Virus record (IMG/VR): IMGVR_UViG_3300006305_000003
Location: 1 to 44,636 of that record
Strand: one strand, 5' to 3'
Length of the DNA: 44,636 nt
Source: a virus
Made by a program: the position numbers and the translations under genes. Shown here piece by piece: positions 7,450 through 14,547 of this stretch (position 1 is the stretch's first letter; every line of letters starts with the position of its first letter). Under the pieces are notes generated by a model, which made no database searches, was not told the DNA's origin, and saw only the letters and a program-made list of their open reading frames with translations.

Positions 7450-7998
7450 TTGACAGAGCACAATTCAAAGACAAAACCTATCACCCTCCTGTTCGATCTA
7501 GAAACAACGCCGATAACGGCAAGAAATAAAGAGATCCACTGCCTAGTCACGATGGACTATGAGACAGGTGAGATCACAAGATATAACGACACAGGAATGA
7601 CAGACCCTATAATCAGAGGAGTTCAGTATCTAGAAGCCGCTGATACTATTATAGGACATAACATCATTGGCTTTGACTTGCCAGTGATAAAACACATCTA
7701 CCCTTTCTTTGAACCAAAGGGTGTGATTGTAGATACACTTATACTATCAAGGCTATACCATGCTGACATGCTGAATACAGACAGAAGATCACAGCACAAA
7801 GGTATGCCTACCAAACTGTATGGTCGCCACTCTTTGGAGTCATACGGCTACAGGTTGGGAGAATACAAGGGGAACTTTGGAGAGACTTCCGACTGGCTGG
7901 AATGGAGCAAGGAGATGGAGGACTATTGCGAACAAGACGTTATTGTTACAAATAAATTATGCCAACATTTCCAGCCCTACCTGACTGGGTTCAACTAG
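7450..7998 (+). CDS. DNA polymerase 3'-5' exonuclease domain as a separate protein (gp5 N-terminal part)
   Basis: The frame starts with TTG at 7450, supported by AGGAG at 7440-7444. The 182 aa product matches the proofreading domain of T7 DNA polymerase: FDLETT with Asp16 and Glu18 (Exo I), GHNIIGFDLPV with Asp76 (Exo II), DTLILSRLYH, HSLESYGYRLGEYKG, and CEQDVIVT with Asp163 (Exo III). All metal-binding acids are kept, so it should be active. It stops with TAG at 7996-7998, while the polymerase domain is in another frame starting at 7959. In T7 these are one 704 aa chain. They probably associate as a complex. Confidence 0.93.
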   Translation: MTEHNSKTKPITLLFDLETTPITARNKEIHCLVTMDYETGEITRYNDTGMTDPIIRGVQYLEAADTIIGHNIIGFDLPVIKHIYPFFEPKGVIVDTLILSRLYHADMLNTDRRSQHKGMPTKLYGRHSLESYGYRLGEYKGNFGETSDWLEWSKEMEDYCEQDVIVTNKLCQHFQPYLTGFN

Positions 7999-9221
7999 AA
8001 CACCAAGTCGCACACATATTACAACGACAAGAAGAACATGGATGGTATTTCAACCAACAAGCCGCATACGAGCTCGAATCAACTCTGCGAAGAGAAATGG
8101 AAGAAGCTACAGAAGTATTACGCAGAAAATACGGGTTCGTTGCTGGAGCAATGTTTACACCTAAGCGAAATAACAGGACACAAGGGTACATACAAGGATG
8201 CCCATTTACAAAACTTAAACAGCTTAACCCAACATCAAGAGACCACATAGCATGGATACTGAAGACCCACGAGAACTGGAAACCGACACAACTCACTGCC
8301 ACAGGCAAAGCAGTCGTAGACGAGACAGTATTGAAAGATATTGGGTCGGAGACAGCCCTCTTGTTTCTGAGATGTCTCGATATTACCAAGAAATTGGGGA
8401 TGATCTCGGAAGGCGTGAACGCATGGCAGAAGCTTGTTACGACGTGTAACAGGATACATCACCATTGTTCAGTTGCCACCAACACATTTCGATGTGCACA
8501 CAGAAAACCAAATTTAGCCCAAGTACCAAGTGACGAAAGATTTAGAAAACTATTTCAAGCTACACCTACTAAAGTTCTGGTCAGTGCCGATCTTAGTGGT
8601 ATTGAGCTCAGGATGCTCGCCCACTACCTCGCCAGATACGATAAAGGACGTTATGCTCGAATCCTTACAACAGGAGATATACACCAAACCAATGCAGAAA
8701 GGATCGGAATTACTAGAAGACAAGTTAAAACAGTTACCTACGCCTTCCTTTACGGTGCCGGGAACATCAAACTAGGGAGGAGCTTTGATAAGTTACTACC
8801 CGAAGAAGCCGCTGCACGAAAGGGAGCGGATATACGTAAGGCTTATGTGGATGCCATTCCGGGTCTTGCGGAGCTGCTACAGGCTTGTCAGAAGTGTAGT
8901 CAGAGAGGTTATGCAAACGCCATCGACGGTCGTCGTATCGGCGTTGACAAAGGGCATAAGTTTCTCAATTACCTCCTACAGGGATCAGCAGCGACGATCG
9001 CCAAGAGATGGATGGTCACCATAAACAAGTGCCTACCACCTGACGGTCACCAGCTGTCGTTCATACATGACGAACTAAACTATGAATGTTATAGGCGTGA
9101 TTGTGAACAACTTGCACAATGGCTAGAGCTTGCAGCCAAAATGGCAGGCGAATATTACAACCTAAGATGCCCCATCGCAGCTGAAGCTAAGATTGGACAG
9201 ACTTGGGCTGACGTACACTAA
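7959..9221 (+). CDS. Family A DNA polymerase domain as a separate protein (gp5 C-terminal part)
   Basis: The 420 aa product carries the polymerase palm and fingers: motif A SADLSGIELRMLAHY with Asp211 and Glu216, motif B TRRQVKTVTYAFLYGAG with Arg253, Lys257 and Tyr261, and motif C IHDE with His370, Asp371 and Glu372. T7 residues after the exonuclease domain number about 517, so this chain is roughly 100 residues shorter. The thumb region seems too short for the thioredoxin-binding insert of T7. The start ATG follows an in-frame TAA by 3 nt and overlaps the exonuclease gene by 40 nt. No Shine-Dalgarno is visible, which suggests coupling. Confidence 0.95.
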   Translation: MPTFPALPDWVQLEHQVAHILQRQEEHGWYFNQQAAYELESTLRREMEEATEVLRRKYGFVAGAMFTPKRNNRTQGYIQGCPFTKLKQLNPTSRDHIAWILKTHENWKPTQLTATGKAVVDETVLKDIGSETALLFLRCLDITKKLGMISEGVNAWQKLVTTCNRIHHHCSVATNTFRCAHRKPNLAQVPSDERFRKLFQATPTKVLVSADLSGIELRMLAHYLARYDKGRYARILTTGDIHQTNAERIGITRRQVKTVTYAFLYGAGNIKLGRSFDKLLPEEAAARKGADIRKAYVDAIPGLAELLQACQKCSQRGYANAIDGRRIGVDKGHKFLNYLLQGSAATIAKRWMVTINKCLPPDGHQLSFIHDELNYECYRRDCEQLAQWLELAAKMAGEYYNLRCPIAAEAKIGQTWADVH

Positions 9222-9227
9222 ACCACC

Positions 9228-9992
9228 ATGAATTTACTAATAGATGCAGACTTCATAGTATATAAATGCTGTGCAGCCTGTGAAACAGAAATAGACTACG
9301 GGGAAGATGTTATATTTGTGACATCTAACTTTAGTGACGCTTACAAAGCAGTTACAAATGAGATTAGTAAGATAAGCTCTCAGTTTTACAATCTACATGA
9401 ACCTATACTCTTCTTTTCAGACACCAAAAATTTTAGGAAAAAAATTTCCCCAGATTACAAAGGTCATCGAAACAGAAAGAAGCCCTGTGGTTACAAACGT
9501 GTAATATCTAACCTAAAGATACAATACAACGTAATAATTATGAGAGAGTTGGAAGCTGATGATGCTATGGGTATCTACGCTACACAACACCCCGGTAATA
9601 TTATTGTCTCTCCTGACAAAGACATGAGACAGATACCCGGTAAATTATATGACCTCGAAACCACTAAAAACATCACCGCTGAAGAGGGTGCACAGTGGCA
9701 CTTGATACAGACACTAGCTGGCGATCAGACTGATGGCTACAGTGGAGTACCGGGCATCGGAGTCAAGAGAGCAGAGACACTGTTCAATAAAGAAGGCTAC
9801 AACTGGTCAACAGTTGTGAAAGCATTTACTGATAAAGGACTGACCGAAGACGACGCCCTTTTGAATGCAAGGCTAGCCAGAATACTTACCATAGATGACT
9901 ATGATACCAAAGAACAAACACCCAAACTCTGGACGCCCCAAGAAGCCTTTGCTATTAACAATGGAGCAACAGTTCAAGATGAGAGTGATTGA
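9228..9992 (+). CDS. 5'-3' exonuclease (gp6-like, FEN/PIN family)
   Basis: The 254 aa protein matches T7 gp6 (300 aa), which degrades host DNA and removes primers. Metal-binding acids appear in LIDADFIVYKC (Asp near residue 6), FSDTKNFRK, ELEADDAMGIYA, SPDKDMRQIP and the helix-hairpin-helix segment LAGDQTDGYSGVPGIGVKRAE. A KGHRNRKKPCGY segment corresponds to the DNA-binding arch (T7 NRKAVKKPVGY). It sits just after the polymerase, as in T7. The 3' end overlaps the next small gene. Confidence 0.95.
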   Translation: MNLLIDADFIVYKCCAACETEIDYGEDVIFVTSNFSDAYKAVTNEISKISSQFYNLHEPILFFSDTKNFRKKISPDYKGHRNRKKPCGYKRVISNLKIQYNVIIMRELEADDAMGIYATQHPGNIIVSPDKDMRQIPGKLYDLETTKNITAEEGAQWHLIQTLAGDQTDGYSGVPGIGVKRAETLFNKEGYNWSTVVKAFTDKGLTEDDALLNARLARILTIDDYDTKEQTPKLWTPQEAFAINNGATVQDESD

Positions 9993-10119
9993 AGATAACT
10001 TACGTAAACATTATGATAAGAAGGAGGACGTTGTGACTGTCTTCCTTGCTTTACAAAGACAGAACTTCGCATTAACAAATGCACTCAAAGATTTAATAGA
10101 AAACAGTATTATTATTTAA
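9979..10119 (+). CDS. Small conserved cyanophage-type protein (46 aa)
   Basis: The frame is open from 9895, but the start at 9979 is preferred. The product then begins MRVIEDNLRKHYDKKEDVV and continues VTVFLALQRQNFALTNALK, matching from memory a short hypothetical protein found between replication genes in cyanophages. It is mostly one or two amphipathic helices. The start overlaps the exonuclease end by 14 nt. Function unknown. Confidence 0.65.
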   Translation: MRVIEDNLRKHYDKKEDVVTVFLALQRQNFALTNALKDLIENSIII

Positions 10120-10120
10120 A

Positions 10121-11512
10121 ATGCCAGAACTAATCTCCCGCACTGGACGGGTACAATCTTGGATCGACGATCCTCATTCAAGACTACCTGTATCATGCAC
10201 GACCTTCGTTGTTGAAGACAGCATGGAAGGTCCCAACGGCATCGAAGCTAGCTGGAGGTTCGCAAGTCATGCACTACGATATGGTGCAGGCTGTGCAATC
10301 CACCTGTCTAAGCTAAGACCAGCCGGACATACAAATGACAAAGGACTTGTGGCTACTGGCCCAGTCAGCTTTGGCAAAATATACTCAGCCTTCAACGAGG
10401 TACTTCGTAGAGGTGGAGCTTACAAAAATGGTGCTATCGTATTGCACCTAGATCTATCACACCCAGATGTGGTAGACTTTATAACAGCAACAAGATCTGA
10501 GCTACCTTGGGTCAAGAGATGTGTCGACATTGATGATGAGATGTGGGCATTTGCAGATCAAACTACAAAGGATGCACTAATCTATGGAATCAAATCAGGA
10601 GATGTTTGGCTCAACAAAATCAAACACGACCCCAATACCGGGGAGCGTATCTATGGGAACGTCTGCCTTGAAGTATACTTGCCCTCACGTGGAACTTGCT
10701 TGTTACAGCATGTCAATCTCGGTGCCTGTACACTCGACAACCTACAAGAGGCTTTCGTATCAGGCATGTCCGAGTTGTGCGATCTCCATAGTCGGACAGG
10801 CGTTGGAGAATCTGGAGAGTACCTTACCCCAGAAGTCGACAGACAAGTTGGGCTCGGAATGCTCGGTCTTGCCAACTTCCTCAGAAGATACAACATCAGC
10901 TACAAAGACTTCGGAGAAGCCCTCCGCCTTGTCAACAGAGGATATAGTGCAACCAACGAAGCCGGTATGGCGGCTGTTGCCTTGGACAGAGCGATTTTTG
11001 AAGCGGCACAAGTAGCACACAATAACAATATGGTAAGGGCGTTTGCTATTGCACCCACTGCCAGCTGTAGCTATCGCAGTAGAGACCTAGACGGCTTTAC
11101 ATGCACACCCGAGATAGCACCACCAATAGCAAGAAAGGTTGACAGAGATTCCGGCGAGTTCGGAGTAGAGAGAGTCAACTATGGAGACGTTGAGATAGCA
11201 AGTGAAGTAGGATGGGACGCATACAAGCGTGTAGCAGACGAAATCATGACGATGCTCGATAGGACAGGATTGCTTCATGGCTACAGCTTCAACAGCTGGA
11301 GCGATGTAGTTTTATACAGTGAAGCATTTATAGAGGAGTGGCTAGGAAGCCCACAAACCTCGTTGTACTACAGCCTTCAGGTAATGGGAGACGTTCAGGA
11401 TAAGTCTGATGCTTACGCAGCGTTAGGAGATACTGACGTACAAGATTACTTGGCAAGCATTGTAGAATTAGAAAAGAATACAAATGAAATTACATGTGAC
11501 TGCCAACAATGA
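10121..11512 (+). CDS. Ribonucleotide reductase large (catalytic) subunit, compact
   Basis: This enzyme reduces ribonucleotides to supply dNTPs for phage replication. At 463 aa it is far shorter than NrdA of E. coli (761 aa) and lacks the N-terminal ATP-cone. Catalytic features are present: Cys26 in PVSCTTF (E. coli C225), N-x-C-x-E as Asn180, Cys182 and Glu184 in GNVCLE (N437, C439, E441), Cys203 in NLGACTL (C462), and paired Tyr416-Tyr417 in SLYYSL (Y730-Y731), the class I radical path. The C-terminus carries CDC, replacing the usual shuttle cysteine pair. Its ATGA overlap with a ferritin-like gene supports class I. Similar cyanophage reductases have been annotated as class II, which the Tyr pair argues against. 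Confidence 0.9.
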   Translation: MPELISRTGRVQSWIDDPHSRLPVSCTTFVVEDSMEGPNGIEASWRFASHALRYGAGCAIHLSKLRPAGHTNDKGLVATGPVSFGKIYSAFNEVLRRGGAYKNGAIVLHLDLSHPDVVDFITATRSELPWVKRCVDIDDEMWAFADQTTKDALIYGIKSGDVWLNKIKHDPNTGERIYGNVCLEVYLPSRGTCLLQHVNLGACTLDNLQEAFVSGMSELCDLHSRTGVGESGEYLTPEVDRQVGLGMLGLANFLRRYNISYKDFGEALRLVNRGYSATNEAGMAAVALDRAIFEAAQVAHNNNMVRAFAIAPTASCSYRSRDLDGFTCTPEIAPPIARKVDRDSGEFGVERVNYGDVEIASEVGWDAYKRVADEIMTMLDRTGLLHGYSFNSWSDVVLYSEAFIEEWLGSPQTSLYYSLQVMGDVQDKSDAYAALGDTDVQDYLASIVELEKNTNEITCDCQQ

Positions 11513-12225
11513 ACCCCTACATAAAATTACAAAACAGAAAAAGAACATGGACACCAGTCCAACCTACAAAAGGAGTACTGAAAGAAGGTGCTGAAGAAAC
11601 CATCAAACGTGCACTCGCAATACGTCATATGGAGCTACCAGTTGGAGAATTTATTTCTCAAGGTCTGGAGAAAGAAGTCCCGGAAGCAGCGAGGACACTT
11701 CTTGAGTCAAACGTACAAGACGAGATTAAACATGATCTCGCTTTGGGCTTCATTGTTGACGCCCATGGGGCTGATCCCCAAGCTGAACTGGAAGCAAAGA
11801 GGTTAAGAGATGCTTGGATTGCACACCCTGACCACACTATTACCAAAGCTCTCGTTGCAGAACGAGCTATATTTTTTGTTCTACTACCTATGTTTCGCTT
11901 TCTTGGTGACGCTGCTCTCAGAACAGTATCAGCTGATATATCCAGAGATGAACAAATACACGTTGCGACAAATAGTCTCGTATGTGCTGAGTTGGGTCTT
12001 GTTCCTAGCACTTCTTTGGATAAGCTTCGGAAGGCAACTATACACTGGGTACTACAACCCCTAAGAGAGAACCACACTGATAAATATTTAGCGAAAAAAT
12101 TTTGGCTGGATGCGAGCGATCAGTTAATGTATCAGGGCAAAGCCCCGCAGTTCTCAGACACAAAAGCAGCTCGTATGCCAGCGTTCTTTGAACATGCAAA
12201 CACCAACCTCCCACAATATGCTTGA
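11509..12225 (+). CDS. Ribonucleotide reductase small (beta) subunit, radical Tyr missing
   Basis: This ferritin-like subunit should hold the metal cofactor that starts catalysis in the partner subunit. The 238 aa product (E. coli NrdB 376 aa) shows the dimetal ligands: Glu42 (probable first carboxylate), Glu72 and His75 in DEIKHD, Glu118 in VAERAIFF, Glu148 and His151 in DEQIHV. Seven residues after Glu72, where E. coli has the radical Tyr122, there is Leu79. A Tyr near the C-terminus (LPQYA) is kept and could correspond to the inter-subunit relay Tyr356. The cofactor is therefore probably a metal-based oxidant rather than a tyrosyl radical. The start overlaps the large-subunit stop. Confidence 0.88.
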   Translation: MNPYIKLQNRKRTWTPVQPTKGVLKEGAEETIKRALAIRHMELPVGEFISQGLEKEVPEAARTLLESNVQDEIKHDLALGFIVDAHGADPQAELEAKRLRDAWIAHPDHTITKALVAERAIFFVLLPMFRFLGDAALRTVSADISRDEQIHVATNSLVCAELGLVPSTSLDKLRKATIHWVLQPLRENHTDKYLAKKFWLDASDQLMYQGKAPQFSDTKAARMPAFFEHANTNLPQYA

Positions 12226-12388
12226 GTCCATCATCGGACCAACCATTAGTTCTATACAAGTAGAGCTAGAAGAAAACTTCCCACCTGTGAATCCACATCC
12301 GAAGCAGAGCATCGGCGAAGTCATGTACTTAGCCGGTCAACGCTCGGTGGTCGAGTGGTATAACAAACGAATCAGTAAAGATGAGTAA
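12218..12388 (+). CDS. Small conserved cyanophage-type protein (56 aa)
   Basis: The ATG at 12218, inside the end of the beta subunit gene, gives MLESIIGPTISSIQVELEE and then SIGEVMYLAGQRSVVEWYN. From memory this matches a small hypothetical family widespread in cyanophages, which supports this start over the ATG at 12188. It is helical with no membrane segment. The TAA overlaps the next ATG (TAATG). It could be linked to the reductase by position only. Confidence 0.7.
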   Translation: MLESIIGPTISSIQVELEENFPPVNPHPKQSIGEVMYLAGQRSVVEWYNKRISKDE

Positions 12389-14547
12389 TGTCACATAAAC
12401 AAGCAGCCAAAAAACGGCACCAAAAGTTTAAACAAACCAGAGTGCAAACCTTTGGTGGTAAGAAAACTAAATTTAGTAAAGCAGAAAAGAAACGAATCGA
12501 AGCAGCAGGCTACAGTGTCAAGGGATACAGCTCTGCTTCACCAAAAAGTGATACATCAGTACAGATATCTAAAGATATTGCTAGGTACGGTAACACTGTA
12601 CCAGCTGGTTCGTTTGGTATTAGTAAAGCTGGTAGAGAACAGGCTGAACGTCAGAAGTCAGTGCAAGGTAGATTTATGCCTAGCAACCCTACTTTTAGAG
12701 GAGTGGGAGCATTCTCAGGACCAAGACCATATAGGGATAGTGATTATCTAACAGCTAAACCTTATGTCAATGCCCTTAAGCAGACGTTCGGACCAAACGC
12801 TACCTTACAAGGTAACAGATTTAATCCAGCAGACAGAGTAGCTGCACAAGGTGCTGGCTTGGTAGATTCTGGCGTAGGTCTGGTTAACGCATTTAAAAAC
12901 ATGGGTCCACAAGGGCTGCTTGGTTTTGGTAAAAAGATACCTAACGTACCTACGTTACCTAAGTTTCAAGATGCAAACTTACAGAAGTTAAGAAACTTTA
13001 GTTCGGTTGCTATACCAGCAGCTTTCACAGGAGGTGCAGCTAGTAGATTAAATAAGGTAGGGTTAGGTCAAGAGGTGAGTCAGATGACTCTAAGGAACTC
13101 AGCGTTTAATGCTGGAGTACGACCAACTCTGACTAAGACTGGTATCACAGGTGTAGGTCCGTTAACTATTGCTAAAGCATTTACACCGGGAATGTTAAAA
13201 ACAGGTCCAACAGCTGGAGGATCAGCAGCTATACTTGGTACAGCAACAGGACTATCAGCTGCACAACAAGCTAAGGCTACTGATACTCAGACTGGTGGTC
13301 TAAATATTGGTAGAGAAACACCAAGCAACACTGGAAGATCTCTAACCAGTAGAGCACTTGGTGCTGTTGATGCAGTAGTTGGTACTGATCTTGATGGACT
13401 AGGTGGTCGAACAACACCATTTGGTGAACGATTAACTTCAAGTATTGATTCGTTTGGTACACTTAGACAAAACATGTCTGACTTAGGTATGAATATGGGT
13501 GGCAAACTTAGTCTAAAAGGTCTTCAAAATACAGCTAAAAATATTAGTACTACAGGTAAGAAACTAAGCATGGAAGACTTGGCTACAAGCACAAGCTTTG
13601 CCAAATCATTTAAAGATAAACCTCTTGATGCTGTAGCAAATCTAAATCCTGATAGTAGTAAAAGAGTAATCAAGACACTCAGTGCCTTAGATAAGAATCA
13701 AGATGTTAGTGAAGCCTTAGCTAATTATGGTGGAGAAGGTTTCCAAAAAGGACTACGTGATACTGCTAGTCTTGCTCAAGATAGTTATGATAAACTAAGC
13801 ACTGATCCGAAAGCGAACCGCAAGGTTGTATCTAATATACTTAAAGCTGATGATCCTAAAGCAGACTTTATGAAAAGATTAGCTTTCCAACAGAAAGAAA
13901 ATCCACAGTTATCTTTAAGATCTAAAATAAGATATGCCTCAGACCCAAACTTTAAACAGTATATGGGTACAGATAGACAGGGAAATAAAGTCTTTGAAAA
14001 TAAAATTAAAGGCATCAATAGAAAAGAGATGGGTATTATTGGTGGCTTAGGTAACTTCGTACTATCTAATCAAGGTCGAGATGTAGTAACTGGTAACGTA
14101 CCGGGTACTAACAACGCACTTGACTTAGCATCTAACATTATTAATACTGGAAGAGATCCAAGCTCACCTACTTTTAACGCATCACAACGTTTCCTACGTA
14201 CGATAGGAGCTGGAGGTCAGCCTACTCCCGGTTCAATTATTAGAGGTATTAACCCGTTCAGACGTATCGGAAACACTCGGGGAAACAGCATAACACGAGG
14301 TTCTAACACACCAGTTGGTAGGGTACCACAACTACAAAACCCAGCCGAAGTAGAACTACCACTAATACCAGAGTCGCGACCACAACAACTAGGCACAGAT
14401 CCAAACAGGCTAGCTGATATACAGAATCAATCATATCAGAATACGTTTAATAACTTATCGGCTCAGTTCAGACCAAGATATACACCCCCAAGAAGAAGAA
14501 CTTTTAGAACATCATTTAACAGAGATTATTTCTCACAATATGCATAA
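12388..14547 (+). CDS. Large unknown protein, probably virion-associated (719 aa)
   Basis: I do not recognise this gene. It begins with a very basic segment (KQAAKKRHQKFKQTRVQT, then KKTKFSKAEKKRIEAAGY), continues as a Gly, Ser, Asn and Thr-rich chain with hydrophobic Gly/Ala stretches (TAGGSAAILGTATGLSAA), and ends Arg/Pro-rich (PRYTPPRRRTFRTSFNRDYF). Local AT content is raised relative to the replication genes. It lies between the reductase block and the portal gene, where T7 has only small genes, so a structural or DNA-ejected protein is the most likely role. Translation is coupled by a TAATG overlap. No enzyme motif is visible. Confidence 0.75.
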   Translation: MSHKQAAKKRHQKFKQTRVQTFGGKKTKFSKAEKKRIEAAGYSVKGYSSASPKSDTSVQISKDIARYGNTVPAGSFGISKAGREQAERQKSVQGRFMPSNPTFRGVGAFSGPRPYRDSDYLTAKPYVNALKQTFGPNATLQGNRFNPADRVAAQGAGLVDSGVGLVNAFKNMGPQGLLGFGKKIPNVPTLPKFQDANLQKLRNFSSVAIPAAFTGGAASRLNKVGLGQEVSQMTLRNSAFNAGVRPTLTKTGITGVGPLTIAKAFTPGMLKTGPTAGGSAAILGTATGLSAAQQAKATDTQTGGLNIGRETPSNTGRSLTSRALGAVDAVVGTDLDGLGGRTTPFGERLTSSIDSFGTLRQNMSDLGMNMGGKLSLKGLQNTAKNISTTGKKLSMEDLATSTSFAKSFKDKPLDAVANLNPDSSKRVIKTLSALDKNQDVSEALANYGGEGFQKGLRDTASLAQDSYDKLSTDPKANRKVVSNILKADDPKADFMKRLAFQQKENPQLSLRSKIRYASDPNFKQYMGTDRQGNKVFENKIKGINRKEMGIIGGLGNFVLSNQGRDVVTGNVPGTNNALDLASNIINTGRDPSSPTFNASQRFLRTIGAGGQPTPGSIIRGINPFRRIGNTRGNSITRGSNTPVGRVPQLQNPAEVELPLIPESRPQQLGTDPNRLADIQNQSYQNTFNNLSAQFRPRYTPPRRRTFRTSFNRDYFSQYA

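Follow-up and report, generated by a model that had tools for sequence, protein, structure and literature searches.

The stretch of DNA analysed here, referred to in full as the window (44,636 nucleotides), is a 44.6-kb virus contig encoding a T7-like RNA polymerase, primase/helicase, DNA polymerase A (polA), exonuclease, portal, scaffold, major head protein, and terminase, together with psbA, a high-light-inducible protein, and an NblA-like ORF, and its source phage is a T7-like cyanopodovirus. The window carries a ribonucleotide reductase (RNR) gene pair, nrdA and nrdB, with the ATG start of nrdB overlapping the stop of nrdA (ATGA). The nrdB ORF is real and encodes the 238 residues given for it in a preliminary description of this locus, and its product is, as judged from its sequence, the beta subunit of a class Ø RNR, the group known as Cyano SP and previously proposed as subclass If. 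The coordinates of both genes, and of the beta subunit residues discussed below, are given in Table 1.

Table 1. The RNR genes of the window and the codons of functionally relevant residues of the beta subunit.
Feature	Positions	Strand	Basis
nrdA: class Ø catalytic alpha subunit, 463 aa, no ATP-cone	10121..11512	+	7URG, alignment, PF02867
nrdB: class Ø / Cyano SP ferritin-like beta subunit, 238 aa	11509..12225	+	ORF, PHROG 6799, Foldseek
Trp14 codon: proposed equivalent of the radical-transfer Trp48 in E. coli R2	11548..11550	+	W in 248/249, one gap; motif, position
Glu42 codon: first metal carboxylate (Glu, the Ic/Id state, instead of Asp)	11632..11634	+	Invariant in 249; P-SSP7 E42 (PMC6370689 Table 3)
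Asp71-Glu72-x-x-His75: first ExxH metal motif	11719..11733	+	Invariant in 249; profile alignment
Leu79 codon: site of the radical Tyr122 in E. coli	11743..11745	+	Conservation, profile alignment
Glu118 codon: metal carboxylate	11860..11862	+	E in 248/249; = E. coli E205
Asp147-Glu148-x-x-His151: second metal motif	11947..11961	+	Invariant in 249; = E. coli D238-E239-x-x-H242
Tyr237 codon: penultimate, proposed equivalent of inter-subunit Tyr356	12217..12219	+	Y in 248/249, one gap; PMC9531940

The window beta matches PHROG 6799 from end to end (E=1.5e-127), and related proteins occur in 56 phage records at 37–78% identity, with the Prochlorococcus phages P-GSP1 and P-SSP7 being the closest isolates (76–78%). 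Searches of Pfam and NCBIfam with beta alone gave no match, which is attributed to divergence, as PHROGs and the predicted fold each identify the protein. A phmmer search of the PDB with beta returned no meaningful match, a PF00268 search of the window's own genome gave none, and a beta profile reached the class Ic R2 of C. trachomatis (NrdB) in the PDB at an E-value of no better than about 0.3–0.4, which is far below significance and was not counted as evidence by itself. The AlphaFold2 model of beta, based on 82 aligned sequences, has a mean pLDDT of 92.4 and a pTM of 0.88, with low confidence only in the C-terminal ~30 residues, and places the metal ligands on predicted helices 29–54, 59–86, 110–132, and 135–162. 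Comparison of this model with the PDB using Foldseek yielded 13 matches at E≤0.001, every one of them an R2 protein of a class I RNR, with R2 of B. halodurans ranked first and the Tyr-less class Ic NrdB of C. trachomatis at ranks 2–3, albeit at a modest similarity (TM of about 0.6 by query).

The alpha partner aligns over residues 3–449 with the structure of the alpha subunit of Synechococcus phage S-CBP4 (PDB 7URG; E=3.8e-217), to which it is about 69% identical as annotated, and also matches the PF02867 barrel (E=3.6e-20). In the alignment, alpha carries N180-C182-E184 (NxCxE), a C26/C193 redox pair, a Y416-Y417 dyad, and a C-terminal CDC, with the three catalytic cysteines and the tyrosine dyad conserved.

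Conservation in beta was assessed over 249 distinct near-full-length sequences from viral contigs, species-representative genomes, and phage records, and residues were related to known enzymes by a profile–profile alignment of 82 beta homologues with a set of nine class I betas headed by E. coli NrdB (pair E=9e-4); the global mode of hhalign gave no useful alignment. Residues E72, H75, and L79 align with E116, H119, and Y123 of E. coli with Met counted (equivalent to E115, H118, and Y122), E118 aligns with E205, and D147, E148, and H151 align with D238, E239, and H242, such that residue 79 occupies the radical-tyrosine position and is a leucine. Residues E42, D71, E72, H75, D147, E148, and H151 are invariant in 249/249 betas and E118 is Glu in all but one, which argues against the ligand pattern having arisen by chance. 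Position 79 is Leu in 239 and Phe in 10 of these sequences, and Tyr in none. Leu79 and the ligands E72, H75, E118, E148, and H151 had been named correctly in the preliminary description, however a sixth ligand, the invariant Glu42, was left out of that list. Published work aligns Glu42 with the first carboxylate, which is Asp in Ia/Ib and Glu in Ic/Id (PMC6370689 Table 3).

The window beta contains four tyrosines (Y4, Y193, Y208, and Y237), with none in the four ligand-bearing core helices according to the sequence and the AlphaFold2 helix bounds. Alignment with class I betas, the predicted fold, and the literature agree with the earlier proposal, and support the view that beta would be unable to form a standard Tyr122-type radical. 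Position 81, two residues past Leu79, was considered as the site of a substitute radical tyrosine and rejected; this position is Tyr in 196/249 sequences and Phe in the window and 51 others, and hence is not an essential radical site.

A tyrosine-less beta is already known, and is not the new finding that had been implied. Harrison et al. (2019) assigned the homologue from P-SSP7 to the class I betas, noted that it lacks an equivalent of Tyr122, and proposed the novel subclass If for the Cyano SP RNR, which occurs in cyanopodo- and cyanosiphoviruses (PMC6370689), whilst Burnim et al. (2022) reclassified the Cyano SP group as class Ø and solved the structure of the S-CBP4 alpha subunit (PMC9531940). 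The ligands of the P-SSP7 beta are E42, E71, H74, E117, E147, and H150, with D70 and D146 in the second sphere (PMC6370689), and an Asp at the second-sphere position before the first ExxH is diagnostic of Cyano SP (PMC6370689 Tables 3–4). This protein (YP_214198.1) is 77% identical to the window beta over its whole length and shares with it the six ligands, the second-sphere Asp pair, the absence of a radical-site Tyr, and the gene order exo-nrdA-nrdB-portal. The two differ in sequence divergence only, with NblA-like and 719-aa ORFs around the gene pair in the window and other small ORFs in P-SSP7.

The betas of class Ø are ferritin-like, measure ~240 aa, carry Phe or Leu in place of the radical Tyr, and have a terminal Tyr but no tail (PMC9531940). 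In the window, a short alpha (463 residues, with a clade average of ~412) without an ATP-cone carries the NxCxE, YY, and C-terminal CXC/CXXC motifs, and a ferritin-like protein of ~240 residues lies directly downstream, with ligands E-E-H-E-E-H, Asp at both second-sphere positions, Leu at the Tyr122 position, where class Ø has Phe or Leu, and an end one residue past the terminal Tyr. The CXC C-terminus, ~240-aa beta, terminal Tyr plus one residue, and Phe/Leu are common to the window and class Ø as represented by S-CBP4, with no substantial difference seen between them. In contrast, classes Ia and Ib have a radical Tyr and an Asp as the first carboxylate where the window has Leu79 and Glu42, and class Ie has replaced metal-site carboxylates and a DOPA radical at the Tyr position, whereas the window beta keeps all of its carboxylates and has no Tyr at the site. 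The window is one more sequence in a described family, and alone does not change the cofactor question; what is new here is minor, namely a conservation table of 249 sequences that excludes Tyr at the site, and evidence placing the 'cellular' members in species-representative genomes on phage contigs. Class Ø is placed near the root of the class I and class II RNRs, and its metal and oxidant are a live question. The group is described as still biochemically uncharacterised in a 2026 preprint (PMC12918982), the biochemistry of the ferritin-like subunit is difficult, with the subunit at times unstable without metal (PMC9531940), and no reports of activity, metal content, or EPR for a class Ø beta were found in the papers retrieved.

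We consider it highly probable that the locus encodes a class Ø beta with a metal-only oxidant and class-I-like radical transfer, borne by a T7-like cyanophage that carries psbA. A metal-only oxidant is the likeliest mechanism for the window beta, which would bind a dinuclear metal site through E42, E72, H75, E118, E148, and H151. The cluster would react with an oxygen species and then itself hold the oxidising equivalent, with no tyrosine, as in Ic and Id. From here, the hole would travel from the W14/D147/H75 region to Y237 of beta, on to Y417/Y416 of alpha, and finally to Cys182, which would start nucleotide reduction; both this order of transfer and the activity of the enzyme are what we infer. 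The equivalences proposed for W14 and Y237 lie outside the coverage of the profile alignment and draw on motif and position together with conservation; published work adds to the case for Y237 (PMC9531940). As the window beta ends one residue past Tyr237 (LPQYA, then the stop codon) and has no alpha-binding tail of ~10 residues, docking of the subunits must differ from the usual arrangement. No activator of the NrdI or ferredoxin type was seen among the window proteins scanned, in which small ORFs were partly covered.

The sequence cannot pick between Mn/Fe, Mn/Mn, and Fe/Fe, since the first sphere equals that of both Ic and Id, Asp71 is found in neither, and Id keeps its Tyr. The choice offered in the preliminary description, of a metal-only oxidant like that of Ic or Id or something new, is a reasonable proposal and is the view already published, with membership of Ic considered unlikely on the basis of published trees. 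That the oxidant is an Ic-like heterodinuclear Mn(IV)/Fe(III) cluster, generated by reaction with O2, is possible though doubtful. The Mn/Fe R2 of C. trachomatis shares the EEHEEH ligands, a Glu as first carboxylate, a residue other than Tyr at the radical site (Leu/Phe in the class Ø betas, as in Ic), and the R2 fold, and is among the best fold matches, with its appearance in the PDB profile search far below significance. This protein is, however, ~100 residues longer, has a C-terminal alpha-binding tail, and is ~14% identical to the window beta, and the second-sphere Glu of Ic (E119) before the first ExxH is replaced by Asp71, invariant in 249 betas. Furthermore, Cyano SP is set apart from Ic in published trees, with its beta not grouping with NrdBzc (PMC6370689). 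An Mn2(IV,III) cluster formed with superoxide, as in Id, appears somewhat unlikely as the oxidant. A photosynthetic host would supply both manganese and superoxide, the window alpha resembles the small alpha of Id in lacking an ATP-cone, and the scanned window proteins included no NrdI. The first-sphere ligand pattern is also that of Id, as in the Mn2 R2 of Flavobacterium johnsoniae, and Cyano SP falls near NrdAi/NrdAk in the published alpha tree (PMC6370689). Id was, however, wrongly taken to be Tyr-less in the earlier account; Id betas normally retain the Tyr, simply without a radical on it (PMC6370689), and have Cys or Ser in the second sphere, whereas class Ø betas lack the Tyr and have Asp71. 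A further suggestion, that manganese would suit iron-poor oceans, is conjectural; Cyano SP phages anti-correlate with iron, but this is attributed to host distribution and intracellular metal pools (PMC12918982).

A di-iron cofactor, or one that oxidises Trp103, Trp180, or Tyr237 in place of Tyr122, is improbable. Both W103 and W180 are invariant in 249/249 betas and neither is accounted for by the standard class I path, however an invariant Trp may be structural, and a stable resting Trp radical has, to our knowledge, not been described for any R2 protein. Even less credence can be given to a class-II-like alpha using host-made B12, with the ferritin-like beta not the radical source but a metal store or a protein of other role, a reading that we regard as very improbable. 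NCBIfam does score alpha higher with a class II model (NrdJ_Z, 64.9 bits) than with a class I model (NrdE_NrdA, 51.7 bits), and some phage records still annotate alpha as class II; class Ø alphas have likewise been reported to be slightly nearer to class II than to class I models (PMC9531940). Against this, the stacked YY dyad of 7URG lies beside the catalytic Cys, in the space taken by the cobalamin adenosyl group in class II (PMC9531940). Class II enzymes have no beta, and an open cobalamin pocket with no YY filling it. Y416-Y417 of the window alpha and Y237 of beta are conserved, and nrdB overlaps nrdA here and lies beside it in the annotated podovirus records consulted and in S-CBS4. Beyond the metal-only oxidant favoured here, a broader proposal comprises two separate parts, namely that class Ø betas employ a cofactor or oxidant chemistry unlike that of Ia–Ie, and that class Ø is wholly phage-borne; taken jointly, these are unlikely. 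Such a chemistry could, for example, involve a metal-only oxidant whose properties are set by the invariant Asp71, or a relay by the invariant Trp103/Trp180.

The 'cellular' set comprises 16 relatives (L141–L156) in species-representative genomes, MAGs, or single-cell genomes, with taxonomic labels of Flavobacteriales, Bacteroidetes, Dehalococcoidia, Euryarchaeota, Planctomycetota, Gammaproteobacteria, and others, Prochlorococcus and Synechococcus single cells included. Fifteen of these loci are found on T7-like cyanophage contigs, with exonuclease, portal, scaffold, or psbA arranged as in the window, and the sixteenth (L152) has only phage-type neighbours (methyltransferase, kinase, and phosphoesterase). 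This suggests that class Ø may be phage-borne throughout, with its 'bacterial' members, as far as these 16 relatives go, being phage contigs binned into MAGs, and truly bacterial class Ø genes were rejected on the same neighbourhoods. If true, this would make class Ø a weaker argument for an ancient cellular RNR.

Some nrdB loci show irregularities of their own. In L153:4145-4381 (NYUL01000043.1), nrdB is interrupted by a 237-nt insert that matches a group I intron (RF00028, 86.5 bits, E=1.9e-22) and falls precisely at the junction of the Asp and Glu codons in the DExxH metal motif. The nrdB genes of S-CBP4 and P-GSP1 (L083:3583-3611 and L089:3580-3608) are one base short, with the frame broken near codon 198, where an A5T4 run stands against A6T4 or A5T5 in 66 other loci. 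A programmed frameshift in these two genes was considered and rejected, the one-base deficit in the A/T run being most likely a sequencing error, though in its reading frame (A_AAT_TTT) the run could serve as a slippery site.

Elsewhere in the window, a Gly/Ser/Asn-rich ORF of 719 aa (12388-14547), between the nrdB region and portal, has no match in Pfam or PHROG, and a tblastn search of 50,697 phage records likewise gave none. An ORF of 74 aa (9895-10119) overlaps the end of the exonuclease just before nrdA, and weakly resembles NblA, a protein of phycobilisome degradation, with a match (E=9e-5) that falls slightly short of the Pfam cut-off. The DNA polymerase A of the window is split between different frames, with an exonuclease ORF at 7450-7998 (TTG start) and a polymerase ORF at 7959-9221, and the annotation of P-SSP7 gives a comparable split, or possible programmed frameshift.
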